Shown here: positions 13,325-35,017 of the stretch, piece by piece
Layout of the letters: each line of letters begins with the position of its first letter
Numbering within the stretch: the stretch's first letter is position 1
DNA from: an uncultured Eggerthellaceae bacterium
Lineage (GTDB): Bacteria; Actinomycetota; Coriobacteriia; Coriobacteriales; Eggerthellaceae
Direction of reading: 5' to 3'
NCBI GenBank assembly: GCA_904420215.1
Contig: CAJFUR010000111.1
Coordinates: 1-40,347 of the forward strand
Length of the DNA stretch: 40,347 nucleotides
The notes under the pieces: generated by a model
Database searches by the model: none
What the model was told of the DNA's origin: nothing
What the model saw: the letters and a program-made list of their open reading frames with translations, nothing else
Program-made: the position numbers and the translations under genes

Positions 13325-15121
13325 TCACGCTTCGCGCAAGCGCGCTTCGAGTGCGGCGACGATGATTTCCAGCGCCTTGACGCGCGCGTAGCGCTTGTCG
13401 TCGCTTTCGAGCACCGCCCATGGGGCGAACTCGGTGGAAGTCAGGCGGAACATGTCGTCCACCGCCTCCAGATACTGGGGGCGCTTCTCGCGGTTGCGCC
13501 AGTCCTCCTCGGTGATCTTCCATTGCTTGGCGGGATCGGCCTCGCGCTCGCGGAAGCGGCGCAGCTGTTCTTCGGGGCTGACCTCCACCCAGAACTTGAT
13601 CAGGATGGCGCCCCATTCCACCAAGTCGCGCTCGAACTCATTGATCTCGTCGTAGGCGCGCGACCACTGGGCGGGCGTGGCGAAGCCCTCCACGCGCTCC
13701 ACCAGCACCCGCCCGTACCAGCTGCGGTCGTACAGCCCCACGTGCCCCGCCTTCGGCAGGCGCGTCCAGTAGCGCCACAGGTGGGGGTGCAGCAGCTCGG
13801 GTTTGGTGGGTGCGGGGCTGGGATAGACGGTGTAGGCCCGCGCGTCGAGCGCCTGGGCGACGCGCTTGATGTTGCCGCCCTTGCCGGCGGCGTCCCACCC
13901 CTCGTACATGACCATGAGGGGAATGCGCTTCTGGTACATGAGGTTCTCCAACGCGTTCAGGCGCTTCTGCAGGCTCTTGAGCTGCTGGTGGTATGCCTGT
14001 TCGTCAAGCGTCAGGGAATGGTCTATCTCGTCGAGGCGGGGGCGGCAGGCCGCAAGGGGGAACCGCGAGGACGCGGGGGCCTGCGCGGCGGACGCGGCCG
14101 CGGCGCCGGACTGTGCGGCGCCCCCCGACGCGACGGAGGCATCGGGCGCAGGCGCTGCAGCGGCAACGCCCCCTGCCACGGCGCCCATGCGCGCAGCGGC
14201 ATGCCCCGGCACGGCGGACGCAGACGTTGCGGCGGCGTTTCCCGGCGCGACCGCGGCGCCGGTCGCGGGCGTCGCGGCGGGCGCCGGCCCGTCTTCGGCC
14301 GCGAACCCGCCCCCAAGCGCCGACTCGATGGCGTTCACCAGCGTTTCGGCCACTGCGATGTTCGCGCGGCGCTTGTCCTCGCCGTTCAGCAGCGTCCACG
14401 GCGCAAAGGCGAAGTCGCTCGCCTCCAGAAGCCGGTCGTAGACCGCATAGGCTTCCTCGTAGTTGCCGATGCGCGCAAGCTTCTCCTCGCTCACGCGCCA
14501 ACGCGTGACGGGGTCGTCGTGCAGGCGCGTCAGGCGCTTCTTCTGCCCCTTCTTCGTCATGTGGACGAAGAACTTCACCACCACGTAGCCGTCGTCAACC
14601 AGCTGGCGCTCGAACGCGGCGATGGAGTCCACGTGGCGACGCACCGCCTGGACCTGCCACTTGTCAAGGCCGTCGAACAGCGCGTCCGGCTTCCGCGGGC
14701 CTTTGGGCAGCGAAAGCGCACCGAACAGGTTGTAGAGCACCTGCTGCATGGCGGCCGTGTACCAGCCGCGGTCGTAGAACGTGATGTTGCCGCGCGGGCC
14801 GAGCGCCCGCCAGAACTCCTGCATGAACGGGAAATAGCCCGTGACGCCATGGTCTTTGCCGGCGAACGCGCGCGCGGCGGCGACGTCGAGGTTTTCGGTC
14901 ACGTGCACGCTGGTGGCGCGCGCGTCCAAGTGATACATGAGATCCGAGATGCGGCTGCCCTTGCCCGCGCCGTTCCAGCCCTCGAACAAAACGACCAGCC
15001 CCACGCCCGCCCGGCGGGCCTCTTGCTGCAGCACCACCAGCTTCTCGGTCAGCTGGCGGTGGCGGCGCTTGTAGGCGTCTTTGGGCAGCGGTTCCAGCGA
15101 GAAATCGACGGCTTGCAGCAT
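13325..15121 (-). CDS. pap: Polyphosphate:AMP phosphotransferase (two-domain PPK2)
   Basis: 598 aa with two fused PPK2 domains, the arrangement that phosphorylates AMP to ADP with polyphosphate. Domain 1 (about 10-265) has a modified Walker A, GWNGAGKG (49-56), with Asn where Asp is usual, and YDRGWY. Domain 2 (about 370-595) has the canonical GWDAAGKGG and YDRSWYGR plus a lid RFREREADPAKQWK. This suggests that only domain 2 is catalytic, as known for such fusions. Residues about 271-355 are an unusually long Ala/Pro/Gly linker, making the protein longer than the roughly 500 aa norm. GGAAGGAG precedes the start. Other polyphosphate genes lie 15 kb away, across the island. Confidence 0.92.
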   Translation of the reverse strand: MLQAVDFSLEPLPKDAYKRRHRQLTEKLVVLQQEARRAGVGLVVLFEGWNGAGKGSRISDLMYHLDARATSVHVTENLDVAAARAFAGKDHGVTGYFPFMQEFWRALGPRGNITFYDRGWYTAAMQQVLYNLFGALSLPKGPRKPDALFDGLDKWQVQAVRRHVDSIAAFERQLVDDGYVVVKFFVHMTKKGQKKRLTRLHDDPVTRWRVSEEKLARIGNYEEAYAVYDRLLEASDFAFAPWTLLNGEDKRRANIAVAETLVNAIESALGGGFAAEDGPAPAATPATGAAVAPGNAAATSASAVPGHAAARMGAVAGGVAAAAPAPDASVASGGAAQSGAAAASAAQAPASSRFPLAACRPRLDEIDHSLTLDEQAYHQQLKSLQKRLNALENLMYQKRIPLMVMYEGWDAAGKGGNIKRVAQALDARAYTVYPSPAPTKPELLHPHLWRYWTRLPKAGHVGLYDRSWYGRVLVERVEGFATPAQWSRAYDEINEFERDLVEWGAILIKFWVEVSPEEQLRRFREREADPAKQWKITEEDWRNREKRPQYLEAVDDMFRLTSTEFAPWAVLESDDKRYARVKALEIIVAALEARLREA

Positions 15122-15300: not shown

Positions 15301-16554
15301 CTACTTCGACGCCTTCATGCGGACGAACAGCACTTCACGCAACGTCTCCAGAACAGCAGCCAACAAGCAGAATGCAGCTATGACGGCAAAAGCGTCCGTG
15401 GGCGATTGAGATCCGAACACCGCCCCCCGCAAGGAGTTCACAACAAGTGGCGAAAATGAAATTCCCACGTTGATCATGGCGTTTCCCACAGCCAAACCAA
15501 TCCCGTACCCTCCCTTGGGCACGACGTTTGCCAAATACACCAGGGAAGCAGACTGCACCAGCGAATTTCCAATGCCCCACACGACACCTCCAAGAATGAA
15601 TGCAGGCACGCAGTCCCCAAGATAGAAAATGGCATACGCCACGCACATGACGCCCATTGCCACAGCCAAAGTGTATTTCTTCAGCACGCTTGCAATGGGC
15701 ATGTATGCCAAACCGAACACCAGCGTCAAAACGTTTTGGACCGAAAACACGATGCTTACGAGCGTCGCATCACCAAGGCCCTTCTCCGCAACGGACATCG
15801 AGCCATTGAGGTAGAAACCGAACGCGCTCAAACCACAAAACATCATGAAAACGCACATGAACAGGTAGTGCGGGGTCAGAAGAAACCGTATGCCCTTGAA
15901 CCCCTGCTTGGAACTGTAAATTTTCGCATCCGGCTCCCCCATGGGCATGTACTTGGCAACGAGGACAATTATGGGAATTATCAGAACGTAGACCGAATAG
16001 GACAATTGCCATGCAATCAGGCAGAACTGACCCACTGCAACGGCAATGATAGTGTTGCCTATGCTATCGGTGACCTGCTTCAGGCCCATGGCGAAGTCGC
16101 GATCCTTGCCATAGAAATTCTCAGCAAACATGCCCGTGGACGTGGTGATGATCAGCCCCTGCGCAACGCCGATAAGCCCACTGCTGACAAACAGGCAGTA
16201 AATGTTCTCATGAAAGAACAACGGGAACAAGCCTCCGACAAGCATAATGGCAAGAGCAGCCAAGCCTATCTTCTTGCGAGGAAAAAACGTCGCCAAAACA
16301 CCCGAGCACAACGACACGGGAATGGCAGTCGCGGAAGGAGCGGCAACCACCATTTGGATCATCGTCTGCGAAGCATCGGGAAAATACTGCGCCAAGTTGT
16401 CGAGAATAACGCCAAATTGACTCAATCCCTGCTGAAAGGAAATCAGCAAACAGACGGGAACAAGAACGCGAAGCTTGTCCCTGAAGCTGGAGTACCGAGG
16501 GAAATCTTCGTCCGAAAGTTCCAGAATAGCGACATTGGCTTTTTCATTCGCCAT
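15301..16554 (-). CDS. MFS transporter (oxalate/formate-antiporter-like)
   Basis: 417 aa, 12 predicted membrane helices with the central cytosolic loop around YMPMGEPDAKIYSSKQGFKG. GLIGVAQGLIITTSTGMFAENFYGKDRDFAMGLKQVTDSIG resembles the fourth-fifth helix region of MFS carriers for organic anions. ATG 16554 is taken over an upstream ATG at 16599 because of GGACGGGG before it and the better N-terminal length. The substrate is unknown. By position it should serve the molybdoenzymes: it is the last gene of the island and follows a LysR gene, with its own promoter and a perfect inverted repeat upstream. Confidence 0.82.
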   Translation of the reverse strand: MANEKANVAILELSDEDFPRYSSFRDKLRVLVPVCLLISFQQGLSQFGVILDNLAQYFPDASQTMIQMVVAAPSATAIPVSLCSGVLATFFPRKKIGLAALAIMLVGGLFPLFFHENIYCLFVSSGLIGVAQGLIITTSTGMFAENFYGKDRDFAMGLKQVTDSIGNTIIAVAVGQFCLIAWQLSYSVYVLIIPIIVLVAKYMPMGEPDAKIYSSKQGFKGIRFLLTPHYLFMCVFMMFCGLSAFGFYLNGSMSVAEKGLGDATLVSIVFSVQNVLTLVFGLAYMPIASVLKKYTLAVAMGVMCVAYAIFYLGDCVPAFILGGVVWGIGNSLVQSASLVYLANVVPKGGYGIGLAVGNAMINVGISFSPLVVNSLRGAVFGSQSPTDAFAVIAAFCLLAAVLETLREVLFVRMKASK

Positions 16555-16798: not shown

Positions 16799-17710
16799 TC
16801 AGGCATCCCCCCTTTCCGTGGACCCGACACCGTCCTCGTTTTCAACGACCTCCCGCACGCTGCTGAGAAACAAGGGCACGAGCGGGTTTCTGTTATCTGT
16901 CTTGTAGGCGAAAAACACCTGCGAAAAAACGGGACTCGCGAGGTCGGCGATCCAAATGCCCGGATAACCCCGAATGGCCTTGCACATCCAATCGGGAATG
17001 ATCGTATACCCTCCTCTGAGAGAAACCATAAGGCCTGCGGCGTGAGGGTCGTCAACGTATCCCGTGCGCCTCGACCGATACCCGACGGTTCTCAAGAGCC
17101 CATTCATGAATTCGAGCGATTTCAGGCAGGTGTAGGCGTCTTGGGCAACGTCATCGGGCACTATAACATCCTTGCCAGCCGCAGGGTGGCTTTCGCCCAC
17201 GACGATGCGCAACGGATACCTTCCCAAAGGTTCGTACGACAGCGAGCCCTTGTCGTCGAAGTCCCCCTGCATGAAAAACCCGATGTCAACCCTATTGGCA
17301 AGCAGCTCCTCGGCAATGGTCCACGGCTTTTCGATGACGAGATCGATGTCCACACTGGGAAACCGTTTGAGGAAGTCTTCAAGCGCCGGAAGATAGTAGC
17401 TTTGTATGTCGGTTCCAACCGAGCCCAAACGCAGAGAGCCGTGCCCCGACGCCTTGTTCGCCACAAGGGCATCGGCCAGATGATCGTACCGATCCACGAT
17501 CTCTGCAAACGCCTCGTAGGCAATGACGCCGTTGTCGGTCATCCTGATTCCGCGCGGGGAACGGGTCAGGAGTTCGGCTCCAAGCGCACTTTCCAACATC
17601 TGCATGTGCTTGCTCAAAGCCGGCTGGGTGATAGCCTCTTTCTCGGCGGCCTTGGTAAAGCTCGCCTTGTTAACAACCGTGAGGTACTCGCGCATATAGC
17701 TGATTTTCAT
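16799..17710 (-). CDS. LysR-family transcriptional regulator (1)
   Basis: 303 aa. The N-terminal winged helix (about 1-60) reads MKISYMREYLTVVNKASFTKAAEKEAITQPALSKHMQMLESALGAELL, a standard LysR HTH. The effector domain (about 90-290) has the periplasmic-binding fold with LRLGSVGTDIQSYYLPALEDFLKRFPSVDIDL and a late block GGYTIIPDWMCKAIRG. It likely senses the substrate of the adjacent enzymes and controls the MFS gene and possibly the operon. It is separated from the upstream ferredoxin-molybdoenzyme operon by an intrinsic terminator, so it is transcribed on its own. Confidence 0.93.
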   Translation of the reverse strand: MKISYMREYLTVVNKASFTKAAEKEAITQPALSKHMQMLESALGAELLTRSPRGIRMTDNGVIAYEAFAEIVDRYDHLADALVANKASGHGSLRLGSVGTDIQSYYLPALEDFLKRFPSVDIDLVIEKPWTIAEELLANRVDIGFFMQGDFDDKGSLSYEPLGRYPLRIVVGESHPAAGKDVIVPDDVAQDAYTCLKSLEFMNGLLRTVGYRSRRTGYVDDPHAAGLMVSLRGGYTIIPDWMCKAIRGYPGIWIADLASPVFSQVFFAYKTDNRNPLVPLFLSSVREVVENEDGVGSTERGDA

Positions 17711-17984: not shown

Positions 17985-18320
17985 TCAGGGAAGGAACACC
18001 GAGCACTTGTATCCCTTGGCCTCCATCTTCTGAGCAAGCTCGTCAAGAGTTCCGTACTCGATGCATTGGGCAAGGCAATGCAGTTGGCAGGAAGGAACGC
18101 CCCCTGCAGCCACACGGTCCTCACACAAAGTGCATGACGACGTGGGGACGGGCACATACTTGGTTTCCCAAGTGCCATCGAGCTTCTTCCAGGGACCCAG
18201 TTCAAGCAGCTTGATTCCCCATTGTCCCCTCGGCAAGCCGAGTTCGTTTCTGCAGGCGATTTCGCATGAATGGCATCCGGTGCACCATTCGTTGTCGATC
18301 ATCAAACCATAGGTGGCCAT
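17985..18320 (-). CDS. Two-cluster ferredoxin-like electron-transfer subunit (1)
   Basis: 111 aa. Cysteines at 13, 16, 19, 23 (CTGCHSCEIAC) and 63, 66, 78, 82 (CTLC...CQLHC) fit two [4Fe-4S] clusters. The closest large relatives are DmsB/PhsB-type subunits, but this is about half their length and has two clusters, not four. It starts at ATG 18320, with GAAGGGAG upstream (an in-frame ATG at 18338 is less well placed). It lies 27 bases downstream of catalytic subunit 1 and should feed it electrons. No membrane anchor (DmsC/NrfD) is present, so the pair is probably soluble. Confidence 0.88.
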   Translation of the reverse strand: MATYGLMIDNEWCTGCHSCEIACRNELGLPRGQWGIKLLELGPWKKLDGTWETKYVPVPTSSCTLCEDRVAAGGVPSCQLHCLAQCIEYGTLDELAQKMEAKGYKCSVFLP

Positions 18321-18347: not shown

Positions 18348-20642
18348 TCAGTCTTCGGCGCGGTAGATCTTGCAGGGCAACGCCCCGTAGTGGGATCCCA
18401 GGCCGAGTTTGCCAATCTCTTTGTGGGGCATGAGCTCGTTGATGTTGGACTTCCAAACATCGAACAGTTCTGCGTCCTTCGCTTCGGGATACCACCAACC
18501 ATGATCGCAGTTAACCACGTATTCCTTCACAATGGGAGTGACGTCCGCCTTGAACTTGGCCCTTCCCCATGGGTTTTCGACGTACACCCAGTCGCCTTGG
18601 CTGATGCCGTATTTCTCCGCCGTGACCGGATTGATCTCCATCATGGCTGCAGGACGAATTTCGCGCAGGCTATCGATCATGCGATGCTCGGTATGGAACG
18701 AGGTGGGCCGGCGGGCGCCCGTGGTGAACTGGAGCGGGTATTTCTCGGCCCATTCGGGGCGGGAAATCTTCGAGAAGCGCGGCTCTTCGTAATAAGGCAG
18801 CGGATCCTCGCCCAGCTTGTTTTTGACCGTGCTCCAGAATTCCACGCGCCCCGTGGGAGACTTGAATCCCGGTTGCCCATCGGCGCGAAGAAGACCCAGC
18901 TTGTACTGATAGTACGGGATCTCGTAGCGCCCATACACCCACTCGCACAAATCCGCGTAAGTCACGTCTTCGGGAACGTCCGGGAAATTATGAATCTTCG
19001 CGTTAAGGTAGTTGTAGGGGTCTTTCCACTTGGGCTCGGCTTCCAAGTCCCGGTCGGGATTTATGCGGTGATCGAGATCGAGCATGATCTCCAAGTCCGA
19101 CTTGCATTCTCCCGCCGGCTCGATGACCTTGCGAATGGCGTTGAACTGGCCGGGCTGGTTGCAGCCATGCAACGAAACGAAGCCGTCATGCTCAATGGCG
19201 AAACTCAGCGGAAGAACCAAATCGGCCAAACCTTGGATGGTGGGATTCATCATGATGTCCGTGGCCATGATGAACTCCTTGTGGCGACAAGCCTCCAGCC
19301 AGCGTTTGGGCTGCTGCGTGATGCACGAGGAAATGAAATTGGAAGACTGGATGTAAAGGAACTCTATCGGGTACGGAATGCCCGTCAGCAGGGTATCGAG
19401 CGTGCAGTCGGGCTGGGTCGTGTTGATGATGAAATCCATGGCAGGATACTGGTCGTGACCCGCAATGGGAATGGGATTCGTATCCTCTTCCTCAATCTGG
19501 CAGCCCACGCCCTTACGCCCCGTGGCTCCCGCAGTCTTCATCGTCTGCCCCAACTTCACGCCCCCCGGATTGTCGAGGTTTCCGCACAAGGCGAAAATCC
19601 CCCAAACGGCATGGCAGATTTGCAAGGTATTCGGATTCTGATCAGCCTTGAGGCCAACAGAGGCCGTGCAAGGCTTCTGGGCCAGAAGGCGGGCGGCGCG
19701 ATAGATGTCCTCAGCGGGAACGTCGCATATCTCTGCGGCCATTTCGGGAGTCATCGTACAGCACCGCTCGGCGTATTCCTCAAAGCCATACGTCCAGCAT
19801 TCGACAAACTCGTGATCATAGAGATCCTCGTTTATGATGACGGCATTCATGGCCATGGCCAACGCGGCGTCGGTGCCAGGGCGCAGCTGCAAATGGATTT
19901 CCGCATGCATGGCAAGCCAACTGGCGCGGGGATCCACCACGATCAGCTTCATACCGCGCTTCATCATGTCAACGGTGCTGTGGCCGAAGAGCCCGTCGGG
20001 GTTCGACCATAGGGGATTGCGACCCCACACGAGCATGTATTTGGGGCATTCCCAACGAGGATCGTCATAGCGATCCTCGAATCCGAAAGCACCGTCGTAT
20101 TCCACATAGGCAGATCCCAACAGCCAGTCCATGGCAGTCTGACGCGGGATGACACAGGACCATCCGCCATTGGCATGGATGGCGGTGCGGCTGTGGAAAA
20201 CCTCGTTGCATAGCTGGAACTGGTAACCCGAAGCCTCACGGCCTGTGCCGCACCACACCGACACCGTGTCATAGCCGTACTTCTCGGTCAGGCGGTGGTA
20301 CTCGGAGACGATGATGTCATACGCCTCGTCCCAAGAAATACGCTCCCACTTGTCGGCCTGCCCGCGGTACTTCCTGTCCCGTTTCATGGGATAGAGCAGG
20401 CGGTCGGGATGATAATAGTACTCAGGAAGCGTCAGGCAGCGCACACACAGGCGGCCATTGGTGATAGGCTGCTCGGGATCGCCTTCCACCTTGACAAGCT
20501 TGCCGTCCTTCACGAACACGCGCAAACCGCATGCGACATCGTGGCACCCCGGAGGCGACCACTGCGTCGTACGAAAAACCTTCGTGCCGTCCTCGAGTTC
20601 GGTCATGTTCGGTGCTTCGCTCACCCGGCTCAACAAACTCAT
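18348..20642 (-). CDS. Molybdopterin oxidoreductase, catalytic subunit (1)
   Basis: 764 aa, DMSO-reductase superfamily with bis-MGD. N-terminal cluster motif: Cys33, 38, 66, 69 (C-x4-C-x27-C-x2-C; GCHDVACGLRVFVKDG and RLCVRC). Then the conserved VWCGTGREASGY, GWSC163VIPR (candidate Mo ligand), CPKYMLVWGRNPLWSNPDG, IVVDPRASWLA, LRPGTDAALAMAM, and the C-terminal molydop-binding domain with FTTGARRPTSFHTEHRM and NCDHGWWYPE. No signal peptide. Cytosolic location and pairing with a small ferredoxin and MFS/LysR recall catechol dehydroxylases and, more distantly, acetylene hydratase. The substrate is unknown. AAAGGAGAG precedes the start. It closely resembles catalytic subunit 3. Confidence 0.9.
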   Translation of the reverse strand: MSLLSRVSEAPNMTELEDGTKVFRTTQWSPPGCHDVACGLRVFVKDGKLVKVEGDPEQPITNGRLCVRCLTLPEYYYHPDRLLYPMKRDRKYRGQADKWERISWDEAYDIIVSEYHRLTEKYGYDTVSVWCGTGREASGYQFQLCNEVFHSRTAIHANGGWSCVIPRQTAMDWLLGSAYVEYDGAFGFEDRYDDPRWECPKYMLVWGRNPLWSNPDGLFGHSTVDMMKRGMKLIVVDPRASWLAMHAEIHLQLRPGTDAALAMAMNAVIINEDLYDHEFVECWTYGFEEYAERCCTMTPEMAAEICDVPAEDIYRAARLLAQKPCTASVGLKADQNPNTLQICHAVWGIFALCGNLDNPGGVKLGQTMKTAGATGRKGVGCQIEEEDTNPIPIAGHDQYPAMDFIINTTQPDCTLDTLLTGIPYPIEFLYIQSSNFISSCITQQPKRWLEACRHKEFIMATDIMMNPTIQGLADLVLPLSFAIEHDGFVSLHGCNQPGQFNAIRKVIEPAGECKSDLEIMLDLDHRINPDRDLEAEPKWKDPYNYLNAKIHNFPDVPEDVTYADLCEWVYGRYEIPYYQYKLGLLRADGQPGFKSPTGRVEFWSTVKNKLGEDPLPYYEEPRFSKISRPEWAEKYPLQFTTGARRPTSFHTEHRMIDSLREIRPAAMMEINPVTAEKYGISQGDWVYVENPWGRAKFKADVTPIVKEYVVNCDHGWWYPEAKDAELFDVWKSNINELMPHKEIGKLGLGSHYGALPCKIYRAED

Positions 20643-21087: not shown

Positions 21088-21435
21088 TTACTTCTCGCGC
21101 ACGGAAAACAGCACACGTTTGGGTTTCTCTTCCAGAAACGGAGCGAGTTCTTCAACGGATCCGTAACGCATGCACAGCGATTGGCAATGGTGCACGCATG
21201 CCGGCATCTTCCCCGCAGCAACGCGACCCTCGCACAGGTTGCACATGTCGGTTGGCACAGGAATGTTGTCGTACTGCCATATCTCGTTCTCTTCGTCTAT
21301 GGGCCAAGGCCCGCTCTGGAACACTTTGATGCCGTACTGTCCCTTGGCCAAGTCCAGCTCTTTTTTGCAGGCCACTTCACACGTATGACAGCCGTCGCAA
21401 TATTCGTAATCGATCAACAAGCCCATCTTTGCCAT
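21088..21435 (-). CDS. Two-cluster ferredoxin-like electron-transfer subunit (2)
   Basis: 115 aa, a homologue of the other two small FeS proteins: cysteines at 13, 16, 19, 23 (CDGCHTCEVAC) and 65, 68, 80, 84 (CNLC...CVHHC) for two [4Fe-4S] clusters. It differs from its paralogues in the linker (GPWPIDEENEIWQYDNIPVP) and in a longer basic C-terminus (KPKRVLFSVREK). AAGGAGG stands 7 bases before the start. It lies 18 bases after catalytic subunit 2, its probable partner. Confidence 0.88.
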   Translation of the reverse strand: MAKMGLLIDYEYCDGCHTCEVACKKELDLAKGQYGIKVFQSGPWPIDEENEIWQYDNIPVPTDMCNLCEGRVAAGKMPACVHHCQSLCMRYGSVEELAPFLEEKPKRVLFSVREK

Positions 21436-23806: not shown

Positions 23807-24061
23807 TCAGCGCGGCCTGAGAACGAGCTTGCACCCATCGACGATTTCCGCGTTGTCCATCATCTTCGTCGTCTTGGGAACGCGTGACCCAGTCTGGTCG
23901 AACAAAGCGTATTTCGCTTGGTCGGCCAACGAAATGCCAAAGGCATCCAACGCTTTGGCGTACACGACGCTGAAGAAGTCACCGTACATGAACTCCGCTT
24001 CAACCGTCTGGCCTTCGTGCTCGAGCACGAGCACGACTTTGTCTGTAGGCAATCCGGCCAT
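23807..24061 (-). CDS. Ubiquitin-like small protein (84 aa) in the molybdoenzyme operon
   Basis: 84 aa from ATG 24061, GAGGAGG 6 bases upstream. The pattern of short strands (VVLVLEHEGQTVEAEF), a helix (FFSVVYAKALDAFGI), YALFDQTGSRV, and a closing IVDGCKLVLRPR resembles a beta-grasp/ubiquitin-like fold such as YukD/EsaB or MoaD relatives. The di-glycine tail needed for MoaD/ThiS sulfur transfer is missing, so sulfur carriage is unlikely unless processed. It lies 37 bases upstream of catalytic subunit 2, clearly part of the operon. The role is unknown; the fold call is an inference from sequence pattern only. Confidence 0.7.
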   Translation of the reverse strand: MAGLPTDKVVLVLEHEGQTVEAEFMYGDFFSVVYAKALDAFGISLADQAKYALFDQTGSRVPKTTKMMDNAEIVDGCKLVLRPR

Positions 24062-24235
24062 CCCGTCCTCCTCTTCCCTCAAACGTTTCCAGCAGTTCCT
24101 TTTCAGCCGCATCAGCCCAAAGCAGCCGCCTTCTGTGCATAAGGCAGCCGGGCCGACCGGCAGCACAATGTCCCCGAAACATCGCCGCCACACGCAAACG
24201 CAGGCGGCCATCTCCCATGCGGGCGAAAACCTTTC

Positions 24236-24574
24236 TCATGGAATGAAAATGGAGGTCATTTCCCCTTTCTCAGCCATGATTCCGGCAAGGTCTTCGAGCG
24301 TCCCATACTCGATCACGCTCGCGAGGCAGTGCATGACGCAGCTGGGTTGCTCCCCACTTGCAACCCGCTCCCCGCACAAGTCGCATTCCGCCGTAGGCAC
24401 GGGAACGTAGCGGTGCTCCCAATGTTTGCCGTCCGCGAGTTTGAACGGCTTCAATTCCAGCACTTTGATGCCCCATTGGCCAAGCGAAAGCTCGCGTTCG
24501 TTTCTGCAGGCAACTTCGCACGAGCGACAACCTGTGCAGTAACGGTTGTCAATAAGCAAACCGTAGGACTGCAT
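24236..24574 (-). CDS. Two-cluster ferredoxin-like electron-transfer subunit (3)
   Basis: 112 aa. Cysteines at 13, 16, 19, 23 (CTGCRSCEVAC) and 64, 67, 79, 83 (CDLC...CVMHC). Close to ferredoxin 1 (shared start YGL-IDN and end IEYGTLEDLA). ATG 24574 sits two bases after the stop of catalytic subunit 3, with AAGGAGG upstream, so the pair is translationally coupled. A 174-base gap then leads to the ubiquitin-like gene; I see no gene there and only weak dyads. Confidence 0.88.
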   Translation of the reverse strand: MQSYGLLIDNRYCTGCRSCEVACRNERELSLGQWGIKVLELKPFKLADGKHWEHRYVPVPTAECDLCGERVASGEQPSCVMHCLASVIEYGTLEDLAGIMAEKGEMTSIFIP

Positions 24575-24576
24575 GA

Positions 24577-26874
24577 CTATTCGCCTCCTTGCGCCCGATA
24601 CACTTTGCAGGGCATGCATTTGTAATGAGTGCCGAAACCAAGCGGACCGTTTTCTTCGTGTGGAATGAGGCTGCTGACATTCGCCTCGAAGACGCCGTAC
24701 AGGCTGTCGGGATCGCCTTCGGGATACCACCAGCCATGGTCACAGGACACCACATCTTCCTGCACTATGGGAGTTACCTCTGCAACCATGCGCACACGCC
24801 CGAAATGGTTCTCTATCCAGACCCAAGCCCCGTCGTCGATGCCAAGCCCCGCCGCAGTTGTGGGATTGATCTGAACGGTTGGCCACGGATGCATCTCGCG
24901 CAATGTTTTTATCTGCCGATTTTCGGAATGAAACGACGTGAAACGACGCGCGCCCGTGGTCATGGTCAGGGGGTATTCCTCGAAAAGATCGGGCCTTTCT
25001 TCCTTCGAGTATTTAGGGGCGAGGTAGTATGGTAGGGGATCTTCGCCAAAACGGGCAAGCTGGGTGCTGTAAAGTTCGATGCGCCCGGTAGGAGTATTGA
25101 ATCCCACCGCGCCGTCTGGTCGCAGAAGCCCTTTCTCGTATTTCCTATAGTCGAGTTCGTATTGACCGATCACCTTTTCGCGAATTTGGGAGAAACTCAC
25201 ATCCAGCCCGGGGACCTGCGACAGTTCGGCGTTGAAATAGTCTTCGGGCGAGCGATATTTCACGTTCGCGGAGCGAGGGTACAGGCGTTTGTGGAGCTCG
25301 ATGATGATCTCGAGATCCGACTTCGTCTCCCCCATGTTGGGAATGACCTTGATATTGGATCCCAACTGTCCTGGCTGCGAGAAGTTGTTGTTCGAAATGA
25401 GGCCGTCGTGTTCAAAATAGCTCGAGGCAGGCAGCACAATGTCGGCCAAGCCCAAGACAGTCGGCGTCATGAAAAGGTCGGCGACCACGATGAAGTCCAG
25501 CTTCCGCAGAGCCTCATACCAGCGCTTCGGTTGCGTGACCATGCAGGCAATGGGATTGTTGTTGAATATGTAGGCGAATTTCACAGGATGCGGAGCACCC
25601 GTCTCGATGGCGTCAAGAGCAGCATCGGGATGCGCCGTCATGACCAGAGCCCCCATGGCCGGATAGCGATCATGGCCGATCATCGGGGTATCCGTGTTGT
25701 CGTACTTCGCCAGCCCTTCGGGTTCCGCATCCTCGTCTTCGCCCTTGGGCTTGTTCTCCACTTGACCGCCGAACGTGGACGTCGCGCCCATGAGGCATCC
25801 CCCGGGAATGTCCATATTGCCGCAAATGGCGAAAAGCGAGAGCAGGGCGTGCCCTATTTGCAGGCAGTTGGGATTCTGATCGACAGCCAACCCCATGGAA
25901 AGCGTGGAGGGTTTTTCGGACAGGCAGCGCGCAGCGCCCCGGATGTCATCGGGATCGACGCCGGTGATCCTCGCAACGTCTTCGACCGGATACTCCCGGC
26001 ACCGCCTTGCCAGTTCGTCGAAGCCGTATGTCCACCGATCCACGAAATCGTGATCGTAAAGGCCTTCTTCTATGACCACATTGAGCAGCCCGATGGCCAA
26101 TGCGCCATCCGTCCCCGGACGCAGCTGGAGATGGTATTCGGCTCGCGTGGCAAGCCAATTCACCCGGGGGTCGGCCACAATCAGCTTGCAGCCACGCTTC
26201 ATCATCTCTATCATTGAATGGCCCCAAAGGCCATCGGCGTTGGAGCGAAGCGGATCGCGCCCCCACACCAACATGTACTTCGGGCATTCCCAAGCAGGGT
26301 CGTCGTAACGGCCGGCAAGGCCTGCCGCATTGTCGATTTCTATATATGGTGCACCCATGGCCCAGCGCATCATCGCCTTGCGGGGCACGATGCATGACCA
26401 ACCCGAATTGGGATGGATGACGGTCTGCGTCCCGAACACGTCGAAAGCCAGAGGATGGTGGTATTTGGAAGCTTCGCGACCCGTTCCGCATAAAACGGCA
26501 ACCGCATTGACGCCATAGCTCTCGACGGTTTGGCGATACTTCTCCACTACCGCGTCGAGCGCCTCGTCCCAAGTGATGCGCTCCCACTTGTTCTCACCCC
26601 GCTTGCCCACGCGTTTCAGGGGATGCAGAAGGCGGTCTTCGTGATTGATGTACTCAAGCGCGGTCAGGCACCTGACGCAAAGACGACCCTTTGTGATGGG
26701 ATGGTCGGGATCACCCTCCACCTTCCGAATGACGCCGTCCTTCACATGAACCCTCAAGCCGCAACCTTGGTTATGACAGCCAAGTCCTGCAGCACATGTA
26801 CGGTAGATCACCGTACCATCTCCCGTTTCGCGCACTGCAGGCGGCGCATCTTCGTTGAAATGAACCTTCAGCAT
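24577..26874 (-). CDS. Molybdopterin oxidoreductase, catalytic subunit (3)
   Basis: 765 aa from ATG 26874 (GGGAGAGG directly before it; an ATG at 26901 is in frame but has no site). Cluster cysteines 33, 38, 66, 69, the same spacing as subunit 1 (GCHNQGCGLRVHVKDG, RLCVRC). GWSC161IVPR holds the candidate Mo-ligand Cys. MLVWGRDPLRSNADGLWGHSMIEMMKRG, IVADPRVNWLA, LRPGTDGALAIGL, MTTGARRFTSFHSENRQ and SCDHGWWYPE follow. No signal peptide, so cytosolic. Subunits 1 and 3 end alike (PCKIYRAED and PCKVYRAQGGE), pointing to a duplication within the locus. Confidence 0.9.
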   Translation of the reverse strand: MLKVHFNEDAPPAVRETGDGTVIYRTCAAGLGCHNQGCGLRVHVKDGVIRKVEGDPDHPITKGRLCVRCLTALEYINHEDRLLHPLKRVGKRGENKWERITWDEALDAVVEKYRQTVESYGVNAVAVLCGTGREASKYHHPLAFDVFGTQTVIHPNSGWSCIVPRKAMMRWAMGAPYIEIDNAAGLAGRYDDPAWECPKYMLVWGRDPLRSNADGLWGHSMIEMMKRGCKLIVADPRVNWLATRAEYHLQLRPGTDGALAIGLLNVVIEEGLYDHDFVDRWTYGFDELARRCREYPVEDVARITGVDPDDIRGAARCLSEKPSTLSMGLAVDQNPNCLQIGHALLSLFAICGNMDIPGGCLMGATSTFGGQVENKPKGEDEDAEPEGLAKYDNTDTPMIGHDRYPAMGALVMTAHPDAALDAIETGAPHPVKFAYIFNNNPIACMVTQPKRWYEALRKLDFIVVADLFMTPTVLGLADIVLPASSYFEHDGLISNNNFSQPGQLGSNIKVIPNMGETKSDLEIIIELHKRLYPRSANVKYRSPEDYFNAELSQVPGLDVSFSQIREKVIGQYELDYRKYEKGLLRPDGAVGFNTPTGRIELYSTQLARFGEDPLPYYLAPKYSKEERPDLFEEYPLTMTTGARRFTSFHSENRQIKTLREMHPWPTVQINPTTAAGLGIDDGAWVWIENHFGRVRMVAEVTPIVQEDVVSCDHGWWYPEGDPDSLYGVFEANVSSLIPHEENGPLGFGTHYKCMPCKVYRAQGGE

Positions 26875-26968: not shown

Positions 26969-27166
26969 CTACTCGGGTTTCTTCGGCGCCGGCGGCTTGG
27001 GTGCACCGGGGGCGGAAGGGGCGGAGGGATTGGCCATGGAGCCCAGCGCCGCCGCATCGGCAACTCCCGGCATGGGAGGCATCGCCCGCAACTTCGCACC
27101 GCACTGAGTGCACTCGGTTGCCCCCACCTCGTTGTCCGCACCGCACTTTTTGCAAATATTGGTCAT
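26969..27166 (-). CDS. Zinc-ribbon small protein with Pro/Ala tail (65 aa)
   Basis: MTNICKKCGADNEVGATECTQCG: two CxxC pairs (Cys5, 8, 19, 22) form a minimal zinc ribbon. It is followed by a Met/Pro/Ala-rich tail ending SAPGAPKPPAPKKPE. It starts at ATG 27166, with GAGGCGG upstream. It sits between the MFS gene (91 bases) and catalytic subunit 3 (94 bases). Function unknown: a scaffold, metal carrier or small regulator are all possible. It is different in sequence from the 83-aa Cys-rich protein further down the operon. Confidence 0.72.
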   Translation of the reverse strand: MTNICKKCGADNEVGATECTQCGAKLRAMPPMPGVADAAALGSMANPSAPSAPGAPKPPAPKKPE

Positions 27167-27257
27167 GACGACCGCCTCACTTGGTCTGAAACACATGGCA
27201 CGATCACCTTTCTCTAGAAGGTTGACAAAGAGCCGAAATAACAGCAGTTCGCCTTCG

Positions 27258-28520
27258 TCAGGCGTCAGCTCCAACTTCCTCGTCGGCAACTGCAACATCC
27301 TTGGCACCCATGACCGCAATGACGTTCACCACCGTCAGGGCGACGCAGATGACAACAGCCACCATGAAGATCATGTACTGGGGCGCATCCGGGGCTATTC
27401 CGAAGAACACCTGCGAAGTTGGCGAGGACGCGAACGAGCCGAAATTCATGGCCAAAGTGTTGATGCCGAGCAGGAACGTGATAATGGCAGGCTTGTTCAG
27501 AACGCTCAGAATCTGGGCCATGCCGCATGTAAGCATGTTCATGCCGAAGCCCATGCTGAAAGCGGCAATATAGGCAACGGGGACGTTCAAAACGCCCGAA
27601 GAAGCTAGCCAGAAAAACAGGGCGAAAGCGAGAGCGACAAGCGCGGCGCCGACTCCCAGGCAGAATTTCTTGGCAAATTTGTATATCAAGCCGAAAACGG
27701 CCGCCACAAGAATGGAACCGACGGTGCGCACCGACATGATGGTGCCGAATAGAGCCGAGTCAACGCCGATATCGGTCAGGGCCAAGCGTCCGAAGCTGGT
27801 GAACCAGCCCAAAGTGAGCATCACGGCGAAGAACGTGAACATCAGAATCCACGAGCGAGGCGTGATCTCTGAGAAACGACCCTTCTTCTCGGACTTATCT
27901 TCCTTTTCCTGAGACGCGGCGTTCGGATCCCCCTTGAAGAAGATACCCATGAGAATCATCGGGATGAAACCGATCAGGTAAAAGGCGAACGCCATTCTCC
28001 AGTTGATCAAGGCCAGCATTCCAGCAATGGTGGAACCGAACGCGAGCGACAAGTTGAAGCAGATGCCAGCAATACCCAACCAGTACGAGCGTGTGCCAGG
28101 TTCGGCGAACGTCTGAACCACCACAGACTGAGCCATGGGCGTAAAGCAGCCAAGCGCCAGTCCCAGCACGGCTCGCGTCAAAACCAGCACAATGAACGGG
28201 GTCCCGTCGGGCAAGACGAGCGGAGCCGCTCCGCCAACAACGAACAAAACGATGGCTATCATGGTGATGGTTTTGAACTTGACATATTTGCCCGCAAGAA
28301 CGCCAAACAGAAACGCGCCTGCCATGGCTAGCAAATTGGTAATCGTAAGGAAATAGGAAAGCGTACCTGGATCGACGCTCGAGTACACCGCCTGAAGTTC
28401 CGTCGTGATAACGTTTGGAATATTGGTGGTTGGCGCACAAGCGTAAACGGCAAGGGCGCCCACGAGCGTGCCGATTTGCGTGCCGGTAAGTTTTTGGCGC
28501 GGCTTTGTAGCTTCGGCCAT
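27258..28520 (-). CDS. MFS transporter (first gene of the molybdoenzyme operon)
   Basis: 420 aa with 12 predicted helices. MFS signatures include GVLAGKYVKFKTITMIAI (loop 2-3) and TRAVLGLALGCFTPMAQSVVVQTFAEPGTRSYWLGIAG. The central loop KGDPNAASQEKEDKSEKKGRFSE is charged. AGGAGGAG precedes the start. Not closely similar to the other MFS gene of the island, so the two probably handle different compounds (for example substrate uptake and product export). A good promoter with a LysR-type dyad lies 130-170 bases upstream, making this the likely first gene of a transcript running to the terminator at 17.9 kb. Confidence 0.85.
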   Translation of the reverse strand: MAEATKPRQKLTGTQIGTLVGALAVYACAPTTNIPNVITTELQAVYSSVDPGTLSYFLTITNLLAMAGAFLFGVLAGKYVKFKTITMIAIVLFVVGGAAPLVLPDGTPFIVLVLTRAVLGLALGCFTPMAQSVVVQTFAEPGTRSYWLGIAGICFNLSLAFGSTIAGMLALINWRMAFAFYLIGFIPMILMGIFFKGDPNAASQEKEDKSEKKGRFSEITPRSWILMFTFFAVMLTLGWFTSFGRLALTDIGVDSALFGTIMSVRTVGSILVAAVFGLIYKFAKKFCLGVGAALVALAFALFFWLASSGVLNVPVAYIAAFSMGFGMNMLTCGMAQILSVLNKPAIITFLLGINTLAMNFGSFASSPTSQVFFGIAPDAPQYMIFMVAVVICVALTVVNVIAVMGAKDVAVADEEVGADA

Positions 28521-30128: not shown

Positions 30129-30354
30129 CATGCCATGCGGGGCGCCTTGCCCATGCGGCCGCACAGCCAGTCCATCGCCATGCGTGGCGTCATGCGGGGC
30201 GGCGGCTGCGCAGGCCGTGCGGGTGGCGGCCCACCCGCGTGCCGTCCGCCATCGCGCGGCCCGCCGCCGCCCGCACGGCCCCGCCAAAGCCGGCCGGCCG
30301 TGCGCTGCCCGACGCGGCTGCCGTGCGCGGCGCCACGAAGAGAACGGATTGCCC

Positions 30355-31389
30355 ATGCCCAACTACGGCGTCATCGACCTGGGATCGAACTCGGTGCGCC
30401 TCGTCGTCTACGAGGTCAAGAACGACCGCCAGGCCTCCTACACGAACAAAGACTTCCGCAGCCTCATGAACGACAAGGTCATGGCGGGGTTGTCCGCCTA
30501 CGTGCAAAACGGCACGTTCGTGCAGGCAGGCATTGAGCGTGCGGCGTCGGTGCTCAAGGGCCACTTGAAGCGCGCGCGGTATTTCGACTGCAAGCGCATC
30601 GACGTGTTCGCCACCGCCGTGCTGCGCAACTGCGAAAACTCGGCCGAGGCCGTGGCAGCCCTGCAGGATGCCATCGGCATGCCCATCGCATTGCTCTCCG
30701 CCCGCGACGAGGCCCACTTGGGCTTCGTGGGCGCCACCTGCGACCGCGCGATCGACCGCGGCACGCTCATCGACATCGGCGGCGGCTCCACCGAGCTCAC
30801 GCGCATCGAGAACGGCCAGGACTTCGCCAACGTCAGCATCCCGCAGGGGTCGCTTTCCTCGTATGCGCAGCACGTCGCCGGCGTGCTGCCCACGCGGCAG
30901 GAAGCGGAGGCCATCGCGCAGGCGTTCTGGCAGCAGGTGCGCGCCCTGCCGGATGCCAGCGCCTACCGCGCGGCGCGCTTCTACGGCATCGGGGGAAGCG
31001 TGCGCGCCGCCGCCAAGATGCACGCGCAGGTGCACGCCTTGGAAACGCGCCCGCGCGCGCTCGCCCCGCACGAGGTCGCCAGCATCCTCGATCTTTTGCA
31101 ACGCGACCCCGGAACCTTCGCGCACCAGGCGGTCAAGGCCGTGCCGGAGCGCGTGCACACGCTGGTTCCCGGCTGCCTGATCGCCCACGCCCTGCTGACC
31201 GGCTTCGGGGCCGATGCCTTGGAGATATGCAAATACGGGCTGCGCGAGGGCTACCTCATGGAGCGCATGCTGGCCCCCGCCGCCTCGCCGCGCCAGCGGG
31301 CGGCCAAGAAGGCCGCATCCGTATGCGCCGCCAAAGCCGCCGCAACCCGCAAGCAAGCCGCGCCCGAACGCGCAATCCTCGCGAAATAG
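30355..31389 (+). CDS. ppx: Exopolyphosphatase / guanosine pentaphosphatase family
   Basis: 344 aa from ATG 30355. ASKHA fold: GVIDLGSNSVRLVVYEV (phosphate 1 loop, residues 5-21), ATAVLRNCENSAEA, DIGGGSTELTRI (phosphate 2 loop) and GIGGSVRA. It releases Pi from polyphosphate ends or hydrolyses pppGpp; the two activities cannot be separated by sequence here. The family's C-terminal HD-like domain is absent and the protein ends in an Ala/Lys-rich tail. It lies 24 bases before ppk1 on the same strand, forming an operon in which synthesis and breakdown are encoded together. Confidence 0.92.
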   Translation: MPNYGVIDLGSNSVRLVVYEVKNDRQASYTNKDFRSLMNDKVMAGLSAYVQNGTFVQAGIERAASVLKGHLKRARYFDCKRIDVFATAVLRNCENSAEAVAALQDAIGMPIALLSARDEAHLGFVGATCDRAIDRGTLIDIGGGSTELTRIENGQDFANVSIPQGSLSSYAQHVAGVLPTRQEAEAIAQAFWQQVRALPDASAYRAARFYGIGGSVRAAAKMHAQVHALETRPRALAPHEVASILDLLQRDPGTFAHQAVKAVPERVHTLVPGCLIAHALLTGFGADALEICKYGLREGYLMERMLAPAASPRQRAAKKAASVCAAKAAATRKQAAPERAILAK

Positions 31390-31413
31390 CGCGCAGGCGC
31401 CACCAGAGGGAGT

Positions 31414-34194
31414 ATGATGGACCCAACCGCCACCAACATCGCGGCAGACGCAGCAGGAGCAAGCGCGGCGGCCGCAGCAGCCACAACGGCCGCAGCAGAC
31501 GCAGCAAGCGCAACTGCCGCAACAGGCACACCCGGCACAACAGGAGGCGAAGGCATCATGGACGACCCGCAGACGCCGAAGGCCGCACCGTATTTGCAGA
31601 ACCGCGAGTTGTCTTGGCTCGCCTTCAACGAGCGTGTCCTCGACCAGGGCGCCGACGAGACCGTGCCCCTGCTCGAGCGCCTGAACTTCATCTCCATCTT
31701 CTGGAGCAACCTGCAGGAGTTCTTCATGGTGCGCGTGGGCAGCCTGACCGACCTCGCGCTGGTGAAGAAGCACATCATCGACTCGAAGTCGGGCATGACC
31801 CCCTCCGAGCAGCTCGCCGCCATTTACGGGCGCTGCCGCGAACTCTACCCCATCTACGAGCGCACCTACGAAACGCTGCGCGGCCTTTTGCAAAAGGCAG
31901 GCATCTGCCATCTCCGCCCCGACGACCTGGACGACGAGCAACGCGCCTTCCTGCGCAATCACGTAGACCAAAACGTCCTGCCGTTCCTTTCGCCGCAGAT
32001 CATCAACGCGCGCCATCCCTTCCCCCACCTCGAGAACGGGGCGCTGTACGTGGTGGTGCGCCTGGACGAGCAGGCCGAGGCGGCAGGCGACGGCAAGGGC
32101 GCGCAAGGCGCGGCAGGCGCCAAGGGAAAGGACAAGGCCGCCAAAGGCGCCAAGGACGCGAAGGACACCGCCAACGCCAAGTCGGAAAAGGGCAAGGGCG
32201 GGCACGCGGACAAAGGCAAAGCCAAGTCCGACAAGGCAGACAAGGCCGGCAAGGCCGACCCCACCGAAAAGGCAGCCGTCAAACAGGCGAAAGCAGCGAA
32301 GAACCTCGGCGCCGAAGGCGTGCCGCTGGGGCTGGTGCCCATGCCGCGCCAATGCCAGCGCATCATCGCCCTGCCCGGCGACGGCCTGCAGTTCATCCTG
32401 CTCGAACACGCCATCGAAATGGCGGCGCCCGAGATATTCTCCATGTACAAGGTCAAGCACACCAACGTGGTCTGCGTCACCCGCAACGCCGACCTCGACG
32501 CCACGGAAGGCACCGACGAATCGGACGAGGACTACCGCGAGCACATGAAGCGCATCCTGAAGAAGCGCGCGCGGCTGGCGCCCGTCCGGCTGGAAAGCGA
32601 GCGCAAGCTGTCCAGCACCGTGGGGCCGCTTCTGATGAAGCGCCTCAACCTCAAGGAGCACCAGACGTTCGTGACGTCGGTGCCCCTCGACATGAGCTAC
32701 ACCTACGACGTGGCGGCGCGCCTGCCCGAGAAGCAGCGCGCAACCTTGACGAACGTGCCTTTCGCGCCGCAATGGCCCGCCTCGCTCGACCAGCGCCGCC
32801 CCGTCATCGACCAAGTGGCCGAGCACGAAGTGCTGCTCTCGTACCCCTACGAGAGCATGGACCCGTTCGTGCAGCTGCTGCGCGAGGCGGCGCACGACCC
32901 GGCCGTCGTCTCCATCAAGATCACGCTGTACCGGCTGGCGCGCCAGTCGCATCTGGCGGAGGCCCTCATCGCCGCCGCCGAGGAAGGCAAGGAGGTCACG
33001 GCGCTGTTCGAGCTGCGCGCCCGGTTCGACGAAAGCAACAACATCGAATGGTCGCAGCGCTTCGAGCAGGCCGGCTGCAACGTGATCTACGGGTTCCGCG
33101 ACTACAAGGTGCACTCGAAGATCTGCTGCATCACGCGTCAGACCGAGCACGGCCTGCAACACATCACCCAGCTGGGCACCGGCAACTACAACGAGAAGAC
33201 CGCGCGGCTCTACACCGACCTGTCGTTCATCACCACCGACCCCACCATCGGCCGCGACGCCGTGGAGTTCTTCCGCAACATGGGGCTGGAGAACACCTCC
33301 GACAACTACGACATCCTGTGGGTGGCCCCGCTGCAGATCAAGCCGAAGATCATGGAGCACATAGACGAGCAGATTGCCCTCGCCCGGGCAGGGCGGGCGT
33401 GCGGCGTGTTCTTCAAGACCAACTCCATCACCGACAAGGATATCATGGAGAAGCTGGTGGAGGCCGCGCGGGCGGGCGTTCCCGTGACGCTGTTCGTGCG
33501 CGGCATCTGCTGCCTCGTGCCGGGCGTGCCCGAAGCCACCGAAGGCGTGCGTGTGGTGTCCATCGTGGGTCGCCTGCTGGAGCACAGCCGCATCTACGGG
33601 TTCGGCCCGCGCGAAGACATGAAGATGTACCTTTCGAGCGCCGACCTCATGACCCGCAACATGGAGAAGCGCATCGAGATAGCCTGGCCCGTCCTCAACC
33701 GCGATTTGCGTGCGCAGATACAGAACTACCTGGACATCTGCATGGCCGACACGGCGAAGCTGCGCGAGCTTCTGCCCGACCGCACCTACACGCCGCTGGG
33801 TTTCTTCGCCCGCGAAGACGAACAGGGCCGCACGGTGCGGTTCGACTCCCAGCAACACCTCATCGAGGAGGCGCAGCGCCGCCACCAAAAGGCCGCCGAG
33901 CGGGAGGCGGCCCGCGACGCGAACCGCCCGCATGCGCCGTGGCGCGGGCAGGAGACCGTCGTGGAGGCCGTGGTGCTGCCGTCCGCCGACGCCGTGACGG
34001 TGCCGGCGGACGGTGCCGCAGTGCCGCCGACGCACGGCGGGCAGCCGGACGCCGCATGGCCGGGCGGCGCAGACGGCGCAGGCGGCAGCGCGGGCGAGCC
34101 GCTGCGCGCGCTGGCCGTCGCGCCGCAGCCGGCAACGCGCCCCAGAAAGCCCAGCCTTCTCGCACGCGCGCTCGCCCGTCTCCTGCGGCTTTAG
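31414..34194 (+). CDS. ppk1: Polyphosphate kinase 1 with lysine-rich insertion
   Basis: 926 aa, well above the usual 690-740. PPK1 makes polyphosphate from ATP. Core motifs: LQNRELSWLAFNERVLDQ (N domain), FFMVRVGSLTDL, LRARFDESNNIEWSQ, the catalytic-His region YKVHSKICCITRQ, LEHSRIYGF, and MYLSSADLMTRNMEKRIE. Three additions are visible: an Ala-rich N-terminal 50 residues, a Lys/Ala/Gly-rich block of about 80 residues (219-299) inside the head domain, and a Gly/Ala-rich tail of about 90. GAGGGAG precedes ATG 31414. A second start at 31558 with GGAGG would remove the Ala-rich part, so the true N-terminus is uncertain. Confidence 0.93.
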   Translation: MMDPTATNIAADAAGASAAAAAATTAAADAASATAATGTPGTTGGEGIMDDPQTPKAAPYLQNRELSWLAFNERVLDQGADETVPLLERLNFISIFWSNLQEFFMVRVGSLTDLALVKKHIIDSKSGMTPSEQLAAIYGRCRELYPIYERTYETLRGLLQKAGICHLRPDDLDDEQRAFLRNHVDQNVLPFLSPQIINARHPFPHLENGALYVVVRLDEQAEAAGDGKGAQGAAGAKGKDKAAKGAKDAKDTANAKSEKGKGGHADKGKAKSDKADKAGKADPTEKAAVKQAKAAKNLGAEGVPLGLVPMPRQCQRIIALPGDGLQFILLEHAIEMAAPEIFSMYKVKHTNVVCVTRNADLDATEGTDESDEDYREHMKRILKKRARLAPVRLESERKLSSTVGPLLMKRLNLKEHQTFVTSVPLDMSYTYDVAARLPEKQRATLTNVPFAPQWPASLDQRRPVIDQVAEHEVLLSYPYESMDPFVQLLREAAHDPAVVSIKITLYRLARQSHLAEALIAAAEEGKEVTALFELRARFDESNNIEWSQRFEQAGCNVIYGFRDYKVHSKICCITRQTEHGLQHITQLGTGNYNEKTARLYTDLSFITTDPTIGRDAVEFFRNMGLENTSDNYDILWVAPLQIKPKIMEHIDEQIALARAGRACGVFFKTNSITDKDIMEKLVEAARAGVPVTLFVRGICCLVPGVPEATEGVRVVSIVGRLLEHSRIYGFGPREDMKMYLSSADLMTRNMEKRIEIAWPVLNRDLRAQIQNYLDICMADTAKLRELLPDRTYTPLGFFAREDEQGRTVRFDSQQHLIEEAQRRHQKAAEREAARDANRPHAPWRGQETVVEAVVLPSADAVTVPADGAAVPPTHGGQPDAAWPGGADGAGGSAGEPLRALAVAPQPATRPRKPSLLARALARLLRL

Positions 34195-34236
34195 GGGCGC
34201 AGGAGAGCGGGGGCGCGGCACGCCATGGGAAGGCGA

Positions 34237-34286
34237 GGGCTGCGCCGTTCGCGGCGCGGCCGGCGGCGCCGCGAACGGCGCAGCCC
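34237..34286. terminator. 21-bp hairpin between convergent ppk1 and response-regulator genes
   Basis: GGGCTGCGCCGTTCGCGGCGC (34237-34257) pairs perfectly with 34266-34286 around an 8-base loop. It sits between convergent genes and is likely a shared terminator, although T-runs are poor on both strands. Confidence 0.6.
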
Positions 34287-34288
34287 GT

Positions 34289-35017
34289 CTACCCGCCCAG
34301 CTTGTAACCGAAACGCCACACGGTTTGCAGATACTGGGGCTTGCTGGGATCCTTCTCAATTTTCAGGCGAATGCGCCGGATATACACGGGTATGCTGATG
34401 GCCTCGCCGGTGTACTCGCTGCCCCAGATGGTTTCCACCAGCTCCTCGTTCGTGAACACCTCACCGGGATGATCGGCCATCAGGGCAAGGATCTGGAACT
34501 CCTTCGGCGTGAGAGTAACTGCCCTGCCAGCCACCGTCACCTCGTAGCGGCGGGGATCGATGGTGAGGTCGCCAAGAGTGACCGGATGCATGAGCCGGCG
34601 CGTTTCGACCGGGGAAAGCGCCGTTGCCTCGCCATCTGCCGGGACGGCCCCCATGGCGGCCCGACGCAAAAGGGCGCCCACGCGCAGCACGATCTCGTCG
34701 TCGTCGAAGGGCTTCACCACGTAATCGTCGGCCCCCACTGCGAAACCGCGCTTCTTGTCTACGATGTCGCCCTTGGCCGACAGGATGAGCACCGGCACGT
34801 CCTTCCGCATGCCGCGAATCCGCTCCACCACCTCGAACCCGTCGAGCTTGGGCATCATGACATCCAAGATGGCCAGATCGGGCTGTTCGCGCCAGAACAC
34901 GTCCACGGCCTCGCGCCCGTCGTGGGCCACGCACACCTCGTAGCCGGCGTCTTCCAAGATCATGCGCACCGCTTCGCACAAACTGCGTTCGTCGTCGGCC
35001 AGCAGAACCTTCGTCAC
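34289..35017 (-). CDS. OmpR/PhoB-type response regulator
   Basis: 242 aa. Receiver domain (1-120): LLADDERSL, phosphorylation Asp52 in LAILDVMMPKLDG, LSAKGD and VVKPFDDDEI. Winged-helix DNA-binding domain (about 150-242): LTPKEFQILALMADHPGEVFTNEELVETIWG and VYIRRIRLKIE. The start is GTG 35017, whose bases overlap the kinase stop (GTGA) and which has a GGGGGAGAGGGG site. This is better than an upstream ATG at 35053 that lies inside the kinase gene. It is coupled with the kinase and ends at the hairpin shared with ppk1. Likely targets are the upstream cytochrome gene or other respiratory genes. Confidence 0.93.
   Translation of the reverse strand: MTKVLLADDERSLCEAVRMILEDAGYEVCVAHDGREAVDVFWREQPDLAILDVMMPKLDGFEVVERIRGMRKDVPVLILSAKGDIVDKKRGFAVGADDYVVKPFDDDEIVLRVGALLRRAAMGAVPADGEATALSPVETRRLMHPVTLGDLTIDPRRYEVTVAGRAVTLTPKEFQILALMADHPGEVFTNEELVETIWGSEYTGEAISIPVYIRRIRLKIEKDPSKPQYLQTVWRFGYKLGG

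Follow-up and report, generated by a model that had tools for sequence, protein, structure and literature searches.

Catechol dehydroxylases of the Gordonibacter type (Dodh, Gp Hcdh, Gs Vadh; PMC11585353, PMC11887054) have a cytoplasmic catalytic subunit of about 770 aa and a small 4Fe-4S subunit, and are encoded together with transporters and a LysR-type regulator. The locus considered here has the same composition. It differs in having three tandem modules and an extra gene, UBL, whose product has a predicted ubiquitin-like fold. The catechol dehydroxylase clusters of Eggerthella encode membrane-anchored three-subunit enzymes, whereas this locus fits the cytoplasmic two-subunit type. Like UBL, the accessory proteins of those clusters are encoded beside a molybdenum dehydroxylase; they are cluster-specific, as the Cadh accessory genes failed to support Dadh, and those of dadh are required for activity, among them the hypothetical protein DadhE, which is predicted to contact the catalytic subunit (PMC11887054).

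Small stand-alone ubiquitin-fold proteins lacking a GG function are represented by TmoB and TouB of the toluene and o-xylene monooxygenases (PMC1779556, PMC1949818). As with UBL, their genes lie in the operon of an oxidoreductase, in their case an aromatic-ring-modifying one. In toluene monooxygenase, TmoB is bound to the catalytic subunit (PMC1779556). The partner of TmoB and TouB is a di-iron oxygenase, whereas the putative partner of UBL is a bis-MGD enzyme. The ubiquitin-like proteins of bacterial conjugation operons (Bil/Bub type) are encoded with E1, E2 and deubiquitinase. YukD/EsaB is a ubiquitin-fold protein with no role in conjugation. No ubiquitin-fold accessory of a dehydroxylase-type enzyme was found in the open-access literature searched, in line with the earlier note on this DNA, which knew of none.

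The window is the whole analysed stretch of 40,347 nt from an uncultured Eggerthellaceae bacterium (contig CAJFUR010000111.1). The genes of the locus follow each other on the minus strand in the order MFS transporter, zinc-ribbon protein, CAT1-FES1, UBL-CAT2-FES2, CAT3-FES3, LysR-type regulator and then the second MFS transporter (Table 1). The solved structure nearest to CAT2 is acetylene hydratase (E 1.8e-70), as expected of a bis-MGD subunit of the catechol dehydroxylase family; catechol dehydroxylases are likewise closest to acetylene hydratase (PMC7028382). This match and the domain scan bear out the earlier description of a dehydroxylase-type molybdoenzyme operon with the small gene beside catalytic subunit 2. 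By eye, the CAT2 N-terminus has no evident export signal, and CAT2 contains no special insert suggestive of a docking site. The CAT2-FES2 pair fits the two-subunit cytoplasmic Gordonibacter type, with catechol dehydroxylation as its putative activity. The scan for terminator-like sites found none on the minus strand from FES1 to CAT2. Of the promoter-like sites, the best one (20729-20700, minus strand) precedes CAT3, the number of such sites being at the level expected by chance.

Table 1. Positions of the main features in the window
Feature	Position	Strand	Evidence
MFS transporter	27258..28520	minus	domain scan
Zinc-ribbon small protein, Pro/Ala/Gly-rich tail, MCFRP... type	26969..27196	minus	recurs in related operons
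CAT1, module 1 catalytic subunit	24577..26874	minus	relatives 67-68% identical in family
FES1, module 1 4Fe-4S subunit, gene stops 174 bp ahead of UBL	24236..24574	minus	domain scan, gene calls
Shine-Dalgarno GAGGAGG of UBL gene, 5 nt 5' of ATG	24067..24073	minus	sequence reading; gene-caller RBS score 6
UBL, 84-aa predicted ubiquitin-fold orphan without C-terminal GG	23807..24061	minus	translation, AlphaFold2 model, fold search, codon score
CAT2, bis-MGD catalytic subunit, 771 aa	21454..23769	minus	nearest solved structure acetylene hydratase
FES2, 115-aa 4Fe-4S partner subunit of CAT2	21088..21435	minus	domain scan, gene calls
CAT3, module 3 catalytic subunit	18348..20642	minus	relatives 80-82% identical in family
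FES3, 4Fe-4S subunit of module 3	17985..18320	minus	domain scan, gene calls
LysR-type regulator	16799..17710	minus	domain scan
Second MFS transporter, past LysR gene	15301..16554	minus	domain scan

Genes with matches to polyphosphate kinase families were observed on both sides of the dehydroxylase cluster. The ppk1 gene (31414-34194, plus strand, PPK1 domains) flanks it on one side. On the opposite side, downstream of the operon and past the genes for LysR and MFS, a protein of 598 aa that matches PPK2 repeatedly is encoded (13325-15121, minus strand). A 1389-codon open frame antisense to ppk1 (30190-34359, minus strand) led the crude gene caller astray and is probably a high-GC artefact.

Translation of the minus strand from 24061 to 23807 yields exactly 84 aa, closing EIVDGCKLVLRPR. 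The plus strand of this region has a stop codon in frame. Between the end of the UBL gene and the ATG of CAT2 (23769) lie 37 bp; thus the 84-residue protein reported earlier 37 bases before catalytic subunit 2, with no strand given, is confirmed and assigned to the minus strand. Its C-terminus reads LVLRPR-stop and, as had been noticed, lacks the GG tail of MoaD/ThiS. The codon score of UBL is 0.274 bits per codon, compared with 0.223 for CAT2 and 0.08-0.19 for the three FeS genes, so that its codon usage resembles that of its neighbours; as 17% of random frames equal it, by itself this score is weak evidence. A longer start at 24211 was dropped and the start at 24061 favoured, since the putative 50-codon N-terminal extension scores -0.07. 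Jointly, however, the Shine-Dalgarno site, the operon position and the predicted fold make a convincing case for a real gene.

The structure of UBL was predicted by AlphaFold2 from the single sequence. The full-length model (pLDDT 62) produced weak matches, with Foldseek E never below 0.8 and, in a second fold search, Z up to 4.4, chiefly to ubiquitin-like proteins. It was replaced in the search by a model of residues 6-84 (pLDDT 67), in which strand, strand, helix, short helix, strand and strand form a complete beta-grasp. The best PDB matches of this model are the bacterial ubiquitin-like proteins 8tyz (chain B: Foldseek E 1.8e-4, TM 0.82) and 8tyx (chain A: Z 11.5, rmsd 2.0 over 77 residues). 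The beta-beta-alpha-beta-beta core that defines ubiquitin-like beta-grasp proteins matches ubiquitin along the entire domain in this pLDDT 67 model. Two weak sequence signals agree with this fold. The sole PADLOC match, BilA (E 0.024), spans the whole domain. An in-register match to the YukD profile is weak and below the cut-off of the family PF08817, yet none of 400 shuffles and none of 271 small proteins from related loci scores as high. The source genome has no match to PF08817, and no type VII secretion genes were seen at the UBL locus. TmoB is not among the fold matches listed, which excludes nothing, and with E values of up to 10 allowed, the Pfam scan gave no match of UBL to the TmoB family PF06234. 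Sequence searches of Pfam, NCBIfam, PHROGs and PDB provided no usable name. Taken as a whole, the modelling supports a ubiquitin-like beta-grasp fold. The earlier note had proposed a strand-strand-helix-strand pattern resembling beta-grasp proteins; the predicted structure agrees with the pattern, and fold search with the pLDDT 67 model gave clear matches to the ubiquitin fold, so that the resemblance holds.

No homologues of UBL were found in 138 genomes of the family or in samples of the wider order, class and phylum. Viral contigs, plasmids and genome-contig collections also contained none. The best weak match (genome G062, E 0.007) was rejected as due to chance: it falls inside a 531-aa frame, and the aligned stretch resembles S-adenosylmethionine synthetase. 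UBL is therefore counted as an orphan at present, found in one genome only, as judged by sequence searches. The closest relatives of CAT2 in the family are at most 54% identical, against 67-68% for CAT1 and 80-82% for CAT3, and a scan of genome contigs with CAT2 as query gave no match. Thus both CAT2 and UBL are lineage-restricted in the genomes examined.

Small genes were surveyed in 80 related regions with 112 catalytic subunits, using a crude gene caller. Near these subunits, zinc-ribbon proteins are frequent. They recur in related operons, and many of them begin with MCFRP and end in a Pro/Ala/Gly-rich tail (PGAPKAPGAP...). A small non-zinc gene lies directly beside CAT or FES at 32 of the 112 catalytic genes. 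These 32 genes belong to mutually unrelated families: SLOT7x (10), a GRDWTKP type (9), an 86-aa Cys-rich family (5), a 99-aa family starting with MEVN (5), and singles including UBL. The scanned representatives have no significant Pfam match.

The SLOT7x proteins (75-79 aa, no Pfam match) have the invariant motifs EAY...G.L..R and AQK..K, and some loci contain two neighbouring copies. Their genes are upstream of CAT in loci L047, L048, L050, L058, L060 and L061, and downstream of FES in L051, L052, L054 and L059. Genes for the GRDWTKP-type proteins (55-58 aa, with this motif near the C-terminus) precede the catalytic gene by 39-101 bp; the nine loci that have them (L087, L094-L100, L104) belong to one clade.

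In the tree of catalytic subunits every multi-member family is confined to one clade, SLOT7x occupying two sister clades, one with the upstream and one with the downstream gene. The small-gene labels require 8 changes, which is the minimum, versus 31 when shuffled, although near-copies among the loci make this clustering partly expected. Such clade-linked small genes beside dehydroxylase catalytic genes are a new observation. CAT2 groups with the SLOT7x-bearing subunits with moderate support (SH 85 and 88 in two trees), and a small gene is present in 12 of the 13 rows of this group. Its nearest relatives mostly carry a SLOT7x protein, in three loci in the position of UBL. In these loci (L058, L060, L061) the gene of a 78-aa protein precedes the CAT2 homologue by 30-38 bp, and CAT3-FES3 homologues follow downstream, the subunit 3 homologue being 80-81% identical. 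Given the same layout around CAT2 and CAT3, UBL is the positional equivalent of the 78-aa protein, although no sequence similarity between the two was detected. The earlier suggestion of a factor specific to module 2 is thus supported for CAT2 itself. However, UBL is not a general feature of module 2-type subunits, as no CAT2 relative in the 138 family genomes has it.

On the predicted fold, the weak sequence matches, the gene position, the clade-linked small genes and the precedents of TmoB and dadh, there is about an even chance that UBL is a third component of the catechol-dehydroxylase-like enzyme CAT2-FES2, specific to it and bound non-covalently. Since it has no GG tail, UBL would serve neither sulphur carriage nor conjugation. 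One face of its beta-sheet could be a protein-binding surface, as in TmoB, with CAT2 as the most likely partner, and binding to CAT2 would stabilise the complex or aid its assembly. UBL would then fill the gene position that, elsewhere in this enzyme family, other clades give to unrelated small proteins. Probably, and most economically, it acts in dehydroxylase 2 as a subunit of the TmoB kind or as an assembly factor. The analysis establishes the gene, its predicted fold, the missing tail, its position and the clade-linked small genes; the binding to CAT2, its stoichiometry and its effect are what we infer. Counting against a third component, CAT2 lacks an insert of the docking kind, and most catalytic subunits of the CAT2 class have no such small gene.

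A role as a transient maturation chaperone of CAT2 is possible, although rather unlikely: UBL would then assist cofactor insertion or folding, as TorD/NarJ or DadhE, and be absent from the finished enzyme. Being upstream of CAT2, UBL is translated first. The window contig encodes no TorD homologues, and 22 matches were found elsewhere in the genome; any of these, however, could serve CAT2. TorD chaperones are helical proteins, and we know of no molybdoenzyme chaperone with a ubiquitin-like fold. For dadh, activity depends on accessory genes other than those of the subunits, while expression mostly does not (PMC11887054), which is consistent with maturation. It is less probable still that UBL is a recently acquired orphan, co-transcribed by chance and with no role in dehydroxylation. 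The lack of relatives in any collection searched, and the fact that CAT2 relatives manage without UBL, agree with this explanation. On the other hand, the gene has a strong Shine-Dalgarno site, good codon usage, a complete predicted fold and a 37-bp spacing to CAT2, and a small gene recurs in the same position beside CAT2 relatives.

Very diverged kinship with the SLOT7x proteins is highly improbable. Position and length are similar, and there is a 12-residue local match around TVEA. However, the profile comparison detected no homology (probability 0.3%), and the conserved SLOT7x pattern is not visible in UBL. Least credible is a ubiquitin-type modifier or a sulphur carrier of the MoaD/ThiS kind. 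The predicted fold, the best matches to ubiquitin-like proteins of bacterial conjugation systems, and the lack of a ThiS/MoaD-family match in the incomplete source genome would fit such roles. They are unlikely, since UBL has no GG and the window proteins scanned include no ThiF/E1, E2 or JAB/deubiquitinase; moreover, UBL has no match to the ThiS family PF02597 in the Pfam scan and occurs in one genome only.

Matches to PF02597 (ThiS/MoaD) are absent from the source genome (84.7% complete), despite very many molybdoenzymes, and from 77 of the 137 family genomes searched. MoaE has a weak match in the source genome (29 bits, L173). In the genomes without a PF02597 match, the sulphur carrier of the molybdenum cofactor pathway may have diverged beyond detection.

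If UBL is indeed a third component of dehydroxylase 2, a wider scheme can be put forward, somewhat more tentatively. Cytoplasmic catechol dehydroxylases may have a variable third-component position occupied by clade-specific, unrelated small proteins. With the recruit in this lineage, which has a predicted ubiquitin fold, CAT2-FES2 would be the first bis-MGD molybdoenzyme to have a ubiquitin-fold subunit. Drugs, neurotransmitters and dietary polyphenols are among the substrates of gut catechol dehydroxylases, enzymes that have been difficult to produce in standard hosts, since they need accessory proteins. For missing subunits or assembly factors, the clade-specific small genes next to the catalytic genes offer concrete candidates. 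As a result, the variable small-gene position reaches further than UBL itself and may also prove the more useful.
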